This document shows, piece by piece, positions 34,084-43,321 of a stretch of DNA of 64,000 bases. The notes under the pieces were generated by a model that was not told where the DNA came from, searched no databases, and saw only the letters and a program-made list of their open reading frames with translations. Position 1 is the first letter of the stretch. Each line of letters begins with the position of its first letter. A program made the position numbers and the translations under genes. This DNA is from Senegalia massiliensis. GTDB lineage: Bacteria; Bacillota; Clostridia; Tissierellales; SIT17. Where the stretch lies: positions 62,001 to 126,000 of the forward strand of contig NZ_QXXA01000004.1 in the NCBI RefSeq assembly GCF_009911265.1, given 5' to 3'.

Positions 34084-36351
34084 TTAATATGACCAGCGAC
34101 CTATAGCAAAAAAATAAGCTTCTGATATTCTATTAAAATCATTTGTAGCCCATATACGCATATCGGATTCAATAGTATCAACGTAGTTTGTTTTAACCGA
34201 AGAAAATACCCTAGCTGCTGTATCTTTATAGACAAAACAACTACTTAAAACAGATGGCTTTTCGATAAAGCTAGCGGGGTAAATCCAAGGTACGTCCGTC
34301 CAATAACCGTCTATGACCTCTGTTCTAGGTGTGGAAGTCACGGAAACGTCGTTCTTAAGGTGCCAGCAAAACTGTATCCCGTTGTTATAACGTATATATT
34401 GACCGTTTGCGTTTTTTCCTGCTTCCTTAACCTTAAGTATGGACTGCCATGGTAGCCATGTTGCGCCCCCGTCTTGCGATACCCTGCTCCATTCCCTGTC
34501 TATTGTATCGACAAAGTTTTGCATTATATGACTGTCTGTCCTTTGTTTTACTGTTAAAATACCATAAGTATAAGGTGAATTTAAAGTTGCAGCATTTGCA
34601 TAATAAAGACCAGAATTAATCTCATTGTTACAATCTTCGGTTAACTCACCCTTACCAGCTTCTGATGTTAGTTTATAAGTTTGTATAGAATTCTTGTCAA
34701 AGTTACCACCGTGCCATATTTCGTGGTAGTTGTTCCCATCTGAATATGTCAAATCAGAACCTTGTATAAGTGTCCTACCTAAAGGACTTGCTAAAATTGC
34801 ATCATAAGTTTGTCCTGTAGTAAGTAATGACATTAATGCACCGCTTAATTTTTTTCCTAATATACCCTTTAAATTTTGAAATTCTAAATTTCCACTAATA
34901 TCACTTGTACCTGATTTATTTACAGCTCCTATATTCTCCGGAGTTATCGGATCGCTACCACCAATTGCATGTCTAGAGTTATGAGCCGTAGGGTTAAAAC
35001 TTGTAGGCTTTCCGGTTATGTTAGCCCAACTTAGTACTAAATCCAGACTTTCACCTTCTGCAGTTTTTACAAAGCTCGTATCTGTGTAAACATATTCACC
35101 CCAGCCACTTAATACAGTTGAATCAGCACTTGCATCTAATACATGGACTTTCATACCTTCGTATTTGTTAGGAATCTGATTTCTTTCTGCAATTGTATTT
35201 ACTACCTTCAAAGGTGTAGATGTTGGAATATGTGCAAGTGGTACTAACCCGTTAGAGTCTAAAGGTGCTACTCCGTCAATTGCTCCTTTTTCTGCTGTTT
35301 TTACATAGTTATTTGGATTAAAATCTTGTCTGTCTATTTCACTTTGTATCCTAATTTCCTCGTTGGCTACTCTTTCAGCTTCACTTAATTCTCGTTGAGA
35401 CTCATTTTCTTTTCTTGCTATTTCATTTTGGTGTCTAATTTGTTCATCTTGTCGTCTTCTACTCTCATATGTTTTTCTTTGAGCTTCTTCTTCTTGTCTA
35501 ACAGCTTCAGATTGCTTTCTAGCATTTTCATTAGATACTCTATCATCCTCATTTTGCTTCCTAGTGTTCTCATCAGTAACTCTCTGATTTTCATTAGTAA
35601 TCCTTGAGTCTTCATTAGATATCCTATCATTTTCATTTTGACTTCTAGTGTTCTCACTAACTTTTCTTTGAGATTCATGCTCCTCTCGTACATACTCATT
35701 ATTTTCTCTAATGGTTTCATTTTGTTTCCTTGTATCTTCATTAGATTTTCTTTGAGTTTCATTCTGTTTTCTAGTTATTTCATTATCCTTTCGTGTGTTT
35801 TCACTTTGTTGTCTTGTATTCTCATTAGTAATTCTTTCAGACTCATTTTGTTCCCTTTGTTGTTCTGCTAATACCCTAGCTTCTTCATTAGATATTCTTT
35901 CCATTTCATGTGCTTCAATTTCACTTAATCTATTTAGCACTTGTATTATTTGGTTAAATTCATTAGAAGACTCAATTGCATTATCATCTCTAATTGTTTC
36001 AATAACTGAAATATTAAAAATAGCTGTAGATAATATAACGCCTTCTGCTTCATCAAATATAGTTAATTCACACTTTACCTCTCCTTCTACAGCTAGAGTT
36101 TGTGTTGTTAAATTAAATTCTACTAATCCATTTTCATCATCTAAGATATTTACTGTATTAAATATCTTAGTTCCATCTGGTTTCTTTGCGTAAAATGAAA
36201 TAGTATTTCCAGTTAATTTTAAAGGTATTCCATCATCACAAATGGTAGCTTGAACAGTTCTACTATTTGTATCATTCTGCTTTGCTTCAACTTTCTTTGT
36301 CATATAGTTGCTTAGATTTTTTACATCTACTGTTATTTTATAAGGCTTCAC
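34084..36351 (-). CDS. Tail fibre / receptor-binding protein with BppU N-terminus, heptad repeats and pyocin-knob-like tip
   Basis: 755 aa. Residues 1-135 resemble the BppU N-terminal baseplate-attachment domain (FYAKKPDGTKIFNTVNILDD). Residues ~155-335 hold about 24 heptads of form xRxxNEx (for example TRKQNET, QRKSNED), a long coiled-coil stalk. A collar follows (AHNSRHAIGGSDPITPENIG), and the C-terminus has a pyocin-knob-like domain (SGLYYANAATLNSPYTYGIL, WSRVSQDGGATWLPWQ). The last part of the gene is visibly richer in G+C than its neighbours, as expected of exchanged receptor-binding tips. Confidence 0.85.
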   Translation of the reverse strand: MKPYKITVDVKNLSNYMTKKVEAKQNDTNSRTVQATICDDGIPLKLTGNTISFYAKKPDGTKIFNTVNILDDENGLVEFNLTTQTLAVEGEVKCELTIFDEAEGVILSTAIFNISVIETIRDDNAIESSNEFNQIIQVLNRLSEIEAHEMERISNEEARVLAEQQREQNESERITNENTRQQSENTRKDNEITRKQNETQRKSNEDTRKQNETIRENNEYVREEHESQRKVSENTRSQNENDRISNEDSRITNENQRVTDENTRKQNEDDRVSNENARKQSEAVRQEEEAQRKTYESRRRQDEQIRHQNEIARKENESQRELSEAERVANEEIRIQSEIDRQDFNPNNYVKTAEKGAIDGVAPLDSNGLVPLAHIPTSTPLKVVNTIAERNQIPNKYEGMKVHVLDASADSTVLSGWGEYVYTDTSFVKTAEGESLDLVLSWANITGKPTSFNPTAHNSRHAIGGSDPITPENIGAVNKSGTSDISGNLEFQNLKGILGKKLSGALMSLLTTGQTYDAILASPLGRTLIQGSDLTYSDGNNYHEIWHGGNFDKNSIQTYKLTSEAGKGELTEDCNNEINSGLYYANAATLNSPYTYGILTVKQRTDSHIMQNFVDTIDREWSRVSQDGGATWLPWQSILKVKEAGKNANGQYIRYNNGIQFCWHLKNDVSVTSTPRTEVIDGYWTDVPWIYPASFIEKPSVLSSCFVYKDTAARVFSSVKTNYVDTIESDMRIWATNDFNRISEAYFFAIGRWSY

Positions 36352-42679: not shown

Positions 42680-42690
42680 TTAACCACCTC

Positions 42691-43307
42691 CTAGCTTTTT
42701 AAGTCTGAAAAGCTTTCTATTTCTTCAAATGCACTTTCTTTTGAATCTTCACCATACAATTTATTTAAGATTTCAGATGCAACTTGTCTTAATCTATTAG
42801 TTTCACATTTATCTTTTAGATCTATTAGAATTTTCATTTGTCTTAAAGTCATCCTAAAAAATCTATCTTCTTCTATCCCCAGCTCAAAAACTGCAAAATA
42901 ATAATAATAATCTAAATTAAAATCTCTTTTTAATCCTTCTTTTCCTTTACTTTGTCTAGAGTTTTTTTTAGTAGCTCATCAAATTCTTCTTCCTTAAACT
43001 CTGAATCAGACATTAATTCTTTATTTATTAGATCATTTGTAATACCTGCAAGCATTGTTACATTTTGATGGTTAATTTCAAAAGAATTAATTATTTGCTC
43101 TTCTGTTAATTCTACATCTGCCATACATCTAACTATTTTAGGTAATACAGATAAATCATTATTACTTGTTAAAGCATAAATTAGAATAAAAGCGTTACCG
43201 TATTCTTTGTGCATCTTAATTAATGCCTTAAAATCTAACCTAAATGTTACTTCTTCTTCTATACCTTCTATTTTAGCTTTATACTGTTTTACTTCATTTA
43301 CTAACAT
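42691..43307 (-). CDS. Tail assembly chaperone GT fusion, expressed by -1 frameshift
   Basis: The upstream chaperone frame (G) continues, after slippage at A AAA AAA (42963-42969), into an open -1 frame with no stop until 42691. The extension after slippage runs NSRQSKGKEGLKRDFNLDYY and ends SFSDLKS, making a ~205-aa product. The slippery heptamer has exactly the phase needed (CTA AAA AAA ACT in the zero frame). This is the standard arrangement of gpG/gpGT chaperones between the tail tube and tape-measure genes. Confidence 0.75.
42930..43307 (-). CDS. Tail assembly chaperone G
   Basis: 125 aa. Starts MLVNEVKQYKAKIEGIEEEV and shows the family-type VTFRLDFKALIKMHKEYGNAF; the C-terminus is acidic, ending KTLDKVKEKKD. 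It coats the tape-measure protein before tube assembly. It is encoded after the major tail protein. The -1 frame downstream gives the GT form. Confidence 0.82.
   Translation of the reverse strand: MLVNEVKQYKAKIEGIEEEVTFRLDFKALIKMHKEYGNAFILIYALTSNNDLSVLPKIVRCMADVELTEEQIINSFEINHQNVTMLAGITNDLINKELMSDSEFKEEEFDELLKKTLDKVKEKKD
42963..42969 (-). promoter_or_regulatory. Programmed -1 ribosomal frameshift site (A AAA AAA)
   Basis: Eight A residues on the minus strand give the heptamer A AAA AAA in the correct zero-frame phase. The zero-frame stop follows ~30 nt later. I see no obvious strong stimulatory hairpin directly downstream. Confidence 0.7.
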
Positions 43308-43321
43308 ATTATCCCTCCAAT

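Follow-up and report, generated by a model that had tools for sequence, protein, structure and literature searches.

Probable G/GT recoding at an A8 tract in a Senegalia massiliensis prophage, and a tendency of hairpin and run length to exclude each other among its relatives

An A6 or A7 tract followed by a hairpin is a textbook ribosomal frameshift site, and in phage lambda the slippery heptamer is GGGAAAG. For the tail chaperones G and GT, lambda included, a -1 frameshift is described as a general rule by Xu, Hendrix and Duda (2004). For phages of Paenibacillus larvae, PMC6070908 reports that synteny gave two tail assembly genes their names and that the two are linked by a translational frameshift. 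For phages Bob (OP503972) and LincolnB (MH454081), G and a joined G-T coding sequence are annotated as tail assembly (chaperone) proteins. Homologues of dnaX use either ribosomal shifting or polymerase slippage, as reported in PMC3711429 and PMC5009743; both papers describe the gene in E. coli and in Thermus thermophilus (work of Larsen, 2000). The recoding of G/GT at the locus described here is of an already known kind and is mostly ordinary. What is new is that, judged from the sequences of the family, the longer A runs tend to go without the hairpin and the shorter ones to have it. We estimate at roughly 0.9 the probability that the locus undergoes G/GT recoding, whichever machine slips.

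The window, that is, the whole stretch of 64,000 nucleotides that was analysed, carries on its minus strand a prophage structural module with genes for the small and large terminase, portal, head protease, capsid, connectors and tail proteins. The order on this strand is major tail protein, G, T, tape measure and distal tail proteins (Table 1), with the tape measure gene starting 11 nt past the stop of T. We read the locus as encoding the two tail assembly chaperones of a prophage whose tail module is HK97/lambda-like. The 27-nt context of the A8 tract is found as a single exact copy in the host genome (3.10 Mb, 53 contigs), and an Rfam scan of the window returned two tRNAs only and no frameshift element. 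Elsewhere in the window, positions 34084-36351 of the minus strand encode a 755-aa tail-fibre-like protein that has an extended stretch of repeats, each seven residues long and of the R-x-x-N-E type, and matches minor tail and fibre families.

Table 1. Features of the chaperone locus, in positions of the window
Feature	Position	Strand	Basis
G, zero-frame tail assembly chaperone, 125 aa	42930..43307	-	ORF; ATG start, TAA stop
T, -1 frame, open from 42975; 90 codons past slip	42691..42975	-	Frame analysis, homologues
A8 tract; in-phase heptamer A_AAA_AAA at 42969-42963	42962..42969	-	Zero frame CTA AAA AAA ACT
GT, predicted fusion product, 205 residues	42691..43307	-	Fused query finds homologues of both halves
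GGAGGG, ribosome-binding site of G	43313..43318	-	Sequence; 5 nt before G ATG
AGGAGG, ribosome-binding site of tape measure gene	42687..42692	-	Sequence; overlaps T stop
Tail tape measure protein, 1110 aa	39347..42679	-	TIGR01760 9.8e-48; phrog_1533 2.1e-182
Major tail protein, 239 aa	43348..44067	-	TIGR01603 maj_tail_phi13 7.6e-34; phrog_88

A sequence-only reading of this DNA had proposed a programmed -1 frameshift that yields G and a GT fusion. The zero frame and the junction that it gave are borne out by our reading of the minus strand. The site reads GAG CTA CTA AAA AAA ACT CTA GAC in the zero frame, and a -1 slip after AAA AAA leads into AAC TCT AGA CAA AGT AAA GGA AAA, i.e., NSRQSKGK. 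Past the slip the -1 frame is open for 90 codons and ends, as had been claimed, at 42691 (TAG 42693-42691). Upstream it is open only to 42975, so the shift must fall within the 46-nt overlap of G and T. Here the downstream ORF overlaps G in the shifted frame with the slippery site in phase, and A_AAA_AAA is the only in-phase X_XXY_YYZ heptamer. Chance expectations for 46 nt, drawn from 59 ORFs of the window (54,735 nt), are 0.064 for an in-phase A_AAA_AAN, 0.16 for an in-phase X_XXY_YYZ of any kind and 0.010 for a run of A8 or more. The tract also reaches the run length (A or T, at least 8-9) of transcriptional slippage sites, as given in PMC3711429 and PMC1088944. Taken alone, the slip site is suggestive. 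Most translation of G would stop at 42930, and a minority product would slip by -1 on the A8 tract into T to give the 205-residue GT fusion. By analogy with lambda, G would form a coat on the tape measure protein, and the T portion of the fusion would bring in subunits of the major tail protein.

The downstream ORF is without a start of its own ahead of its conserved part, in agreement with the earlier statement that the GT part has no good start near its beginning. Its first ATG, at 42852, is the 38th codon past the slip, and no ATG, GTG or TTG precedes it in the T frame. The other in-frame candidates are CTG 42882 and ATA 42876. Unlike G with its GGAGGG, T has no ribosome-binding signal in the sequence. 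Residues Y26, L32 and F39 of the T frame, which are invariant or nearly so in 25 aligned sequences, all precede ATG 42852, so a start at this codon would lose them.

A single locus is no proof of recoding, and it is the arrangement kept in relatives that makes the slip site convincing. Protein searches of viral contigs, genome contigs, phage records and whole genomes yielded the relatives, and with duplicates of the same T protein merged they amount to 95 unique T homologues. Of the 67 places from one of the searches, 66 are in the sample (30 as loci, 35 added, and G603, which is L058), and G1168, a short open frame, was left out. Also left out of the count were four loci with no T hit (L033, L075, L083, L091) and two with no upstream ORF of 70 aa (L039, L081). 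At 93 of the 95, an upstream ORF of 70 aa or more overlaps T, and T lies in the -1 frame in 91 of these 93 and in the +1 frame in two (L037, L146). Among the 91, 62 have an in-phase A-tract heptamer (in-phase A tracts were what the site search sought, and the constant phase of the A6/A7 tracts is thus partly by construction), 28 have a G5 site, mostly TG GGG GAA, and one (L168; A7, T at -1) has neither and no in-phase site that could be named. Beyond the stop of G, dN/dS of T is 0.056-0.427 in 10 pairs of relatives (10/10 below 0.5); by this comparison the T-only region evolves as protein in the T frame, which is what translation there would lead one to expect. Gene order, the in-phase A tract and the missing T start all speak for programmed production of G and a -1 GT fusion. 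So do the purifying selection that relatives show on their T frame and the occurrence of the same arrangement in them, the published P. larvae phages included.

Several T frames in the sample are unannotated. Enterococcus phage Planchet (L037, OX422066) has a +1-frame T homologue at ~2738-2993 after a 'putative tail protein', with CCC AGT TGA in the overlap; the direction of the shift varies within the T family. Halomonas phage YPHTV-1 (L038; A9 and hairpin) and Phage Wrath (L040; A7 and hairpin) each have a T frame behind an annotated hypothetical protein. The G5 site of 28 unique T homologues (L048-L050, L059-L061, L063 and others in L112-L153; e.g., L048:1459-1665) is usually (A/T)TG GGG GAA, that is, G_GGG_GAA and not X_XXY_YYZ, a form that suggests a -1 slip by only the tRNA in the P site. 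Many of its carriers are in one family (f58), of the same class.

We folded the 65 nt 3' of each tract, without pseudoknots, and took z<=-2 as a strong hairpin. At this cut-off, which was set after the first 23 sites and which matters because five bare A9 members lie at -1.72 to -1.94, a hairpin shortly 3' of the tract is present in 40/44 A6/A7 relatives, in 4/18 A8/A9 members (window included) and in 1/14 A9 members. A threshold on the minimum free energy of at most -12 kcal/mol gives a cleaner gap than z (42/44 vs 4/18). Tract length and hairpin are associated with Mann-Whitney p 3.5e-5 and Fisher p 2.3e-7 if relatedness is ignored. When the sequences are collapsed at 80, 60 and 45% identity (18 clusters at 45%), Fisher p is 2.1e-5, 0.0011 and 0.052 for A8 or longer, and 1.9e-6, 1.9e-4 and 0.0055 for A9. 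The difference is also seen at GC-poor sites (GC at most 0.32), where 10/13 A6/A7 and 3/16 A8/A9 members have the hairpin. A strong hairpin also follows every one of the 28 G5 sites. The stem was compared across 12 of the 62 relatives, all of them hairpin-bearing and A6-A8; it retains most of its pairs, with both-sided changes at 2/11 pairs. This covariation is modest support, since the 3' arm is also coding and holds the codons of a conserved D-W/D-Y motif.

Which machine slips is a separate matter. One explanation is that the ribosome does so, tandem tRNA-Lys slipping by -1 on A_AAA_AAA at low efficiency and without a stimulator, and for the window we regard this as an even bet. The heptamer is in phase, and the -1 frame is shared by 91/93 relatives. 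The A6 relatives (22 of the 62) are shorter than the lengths given for polymerase slippage and in 21 of the 22 a hairpin follows shortly downstream; for these reasons, the ancestral slip mode of the family was probably ribosomal. Three A_AAA_AAG relatives are, like the window, without a strong hairpin, and two reporter constructs from another tail-chaperone cluster shifted 6 and 7% as reported in PMC3711429. However, the review PMC5009743 gives A_AAA_AAA as far less shift-prone than A_AAA_AAG in E. coli, and bare A7 in the A_AAA_AAA phase is barely avoided in host genes (131 vs 142.5 expected).

The other explanation, to which we give somewhat less than an even chance at the window, is that RNA polymerase slips. 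Some transcripts would gain one A on A8 (on A9 in relatives), and the ribosome would read from G into T unslipped. Besides the scarcity of strong hairpins among A8/A9 members, and above all A9 members, the lengths of the tracts point this way. Of 16 in-phase A_AAA_AAA sites, 14 are bare, and these comprise 13 of exactly A9, one A8 (the window) and no A7. Host codon statistics predict A7 at 54% and A9 at 11.5% of such sites, and the binomial test of the A9 excess, which ignores or roughly allows for relatedness, gives p 1e-4 when counted as 5/6 lineages. Against this, the identity of the heptamer is confounded with run length, as the sample has no A7 in the A_AAA_AAA phase. The codon phase at the start of the bare A9 tracts is 0 in six and 2 in seven, which also favours slippage by the polymerase. 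A further point is L146 (A8, T at +1), a relative of L145 (A9, T at -1): polymerase slippage could serve both arrangements and a -1 ribosomal slip could not serve the +1 arrangement, but L146 may be a one-base assembly error. The pair itself can be read either as such an error or as a polymerase-slippage site that tolerates either length.

The host genes bear on the same explanation. Runs were counted in 298 ORFs of the host (306 kb in all, taken from the window and from 15 further stretches of its contig, L092-L106) and compared with a synonymous-shuffle expectation. A6 and A7 runs occur about as often as expected (ratio 1.03), A8 runs are partly avoided (59 vs 89.4 expected, 0.66), and longer runs are nearly absent: 2 vs 30.3 for A9 (0.07), 0 vs 20.3 for A10+, and 2 vs 50.6 for A9 and longer together. 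Such avoidance has been used to locate slippage-prone lengths, often nine, in PMC1088944, where productive slippage on eight A's is proposed for some species and replication slippage is treated as a co-cause. Replication slippage would indeed also yield avoidance of long runs, and the avoidance of A8 is strongest in the codon phases that hold A_AAA_AAA; both points weaken the case for the polymerase. Coding T runs in the host are likewise avoided (T9 0 vs 7.0 and T10+ 0 vs 3.6 expected).

Since bare A9 is in excess among relatives and A9 is avoided in host genes, the bare A9 relatives look like RNA-polymerase slippage sites, and for these tracts polymerase slippage is the simpler reading of the sequences. 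On the tree, A9 needs at least 6 changes. The tree-corrected association is one-directional, hairpin loss going with A9 in 4.1 of 6 independent pairs and the opposite in 0, but it is not significant. Our full-text literature searches found no tail chaperone shown to use polymerase slippage.

The A8 tract of the window is a borderline case, where slippage by the ribosome without a hairpin and slippage by the polymerase have nearly the same probability. No downstream hairpin was found at this site (z +0.40 for 70 nt, +1.27 for 65 nt), and a structure scan from -120 to +300 around it was flat, with no longer-range or upstream structure. A short complement, TCTAGA/TTTAGA, was noticed by eye near the expected place and may be a relic of the stem. 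Without the hairpin of its A6/A7 relatives, the site could have a very low slip efficiency. That the window has A8 and not A9, and that the other three of the four A8 members carry a hairpin and it alone is bare, argues against the polymerase. Closest to it in the family are, on one side, A6/A7 members with a hairpin and, on the other, a bare A9 Clostridium group. Its grouping with the former has support 93/82 in a tree that is drawn open and is unresolved in a second tree. We tentatively suggest that the family may have switched several times from hairpin-stimulated ribosomal slippage (A6/A7 or G5) to polymerase slippage on bare A8/A9, with the window on the polymerase side.

Two explanations that need no recoding fare far worse. 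It is highly improbable that a former single gene was broken by an indel or by a one-base assembly error. Homopolymers are error-prone, and the assembly of the A8 run may be wrong by one base; one base more, A9, would fuse G and T in frame. This explanation is nevertheless rejected on the conservation of the -1 relation, which 91/93 unique relatives share, complete named phages among them. Weakest of all is a separate T gene with its own start. CTG 42882 and ATG 42852 are in frame, but neither comes before the conserved core or has a ribosome-binding site. In several relatives the A tract is where the T frame opens, and its overlap with G is only 10-16 nt. We reject this explanation on the positions of start codons in the T frame.

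The only profile match of the window's G is to phrog_2115 'tail protein' (E=0.0074), which matches 18/19 aligned G members; phrog_183 'tail chaperone protein' matches 13/19, and weak Pfam matches are to TAC_11 (4) and TAC_12 (3). Among 25 aligned T members, 22 match phrog_10988, for which no function is given, and 4 match PF09550 Phage_TAC_6 (best 1.7e-6). Thus, Phage_TAC_6, TAC_11 and TAC_12 are matched by some aligned T or G members but not by the window member, and the window's G and T have no significant match to curated tail-chaperone Pfam families. The term 'lambda-like' in the sequence-only reading stands for the arrangement and the presumed role; it does not extend to family membership by such matches. 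No match to the G-T fusion was found in the phage and plasmid collections. The AlphaFold2 model of G has a pLDDT of 78. Its top Foldseek match among viral models is a 195-residue tail assembly protein of P. larvae phage Wanderer (prob 1.00, E 9.6e-3), behind which many tail chaperones rank, none below E 0.001; against the PDB, nothing significant was found for G by sequence or by fold. The model of T (pLDDT 74) is mainly helical after a disordered linker, consistent with the helical downstream protein that had been predicted. Its fold matches are weak, none below E 0.001, and the Wanderer tail assembly protein ranks second.

A slippery heptamer in a frameshift annotation does not by itself tell which machine slips. 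In lambda, tail assembly is set up by the ratio of G to GT, and it therefore depends on the origin of the slip whether changes in the ribosome with its tRNAs or changes in RNA polymerase would alter that ratio. Hairpin-bearing A6/A7 members and bare A9 members form natural matched pairs within the family, in which the choice between ribosomal and polymerase recoding is directly testable.

Compared with lambda, the locus has the same position between major tail protein and tape measure, an overlapping -1 frame, a slippery heptamer near the end of G and a T without a start. It differs in its site, which is A_AAA_AAA within A8, and in having no significant match to a curated tail-chaperone Pfam family. 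Another close system is the tail assembly proteins gp12/gp13 of the P. larvae phages, with the same gene order, a homologous T, a weakly similar G, a published frameshift and a joined coding sequence. The difference is that those phages have A6 (A_AAA_AAC) with a hairpin (z -2.5, -2.7), whereas the window has A8 and no hairpin. Like dnaX, the family may hold homologous genes of which some lineages use a ribosomal shift and others slippage of the polymerase on A9, though dnaX is a different gene and its two modes were shown by experiment, while those of the tail chaperones here are inferred. If true, a switch to polymerase slippage in tail chaperones would be the phage counterpart of the dnaX case.
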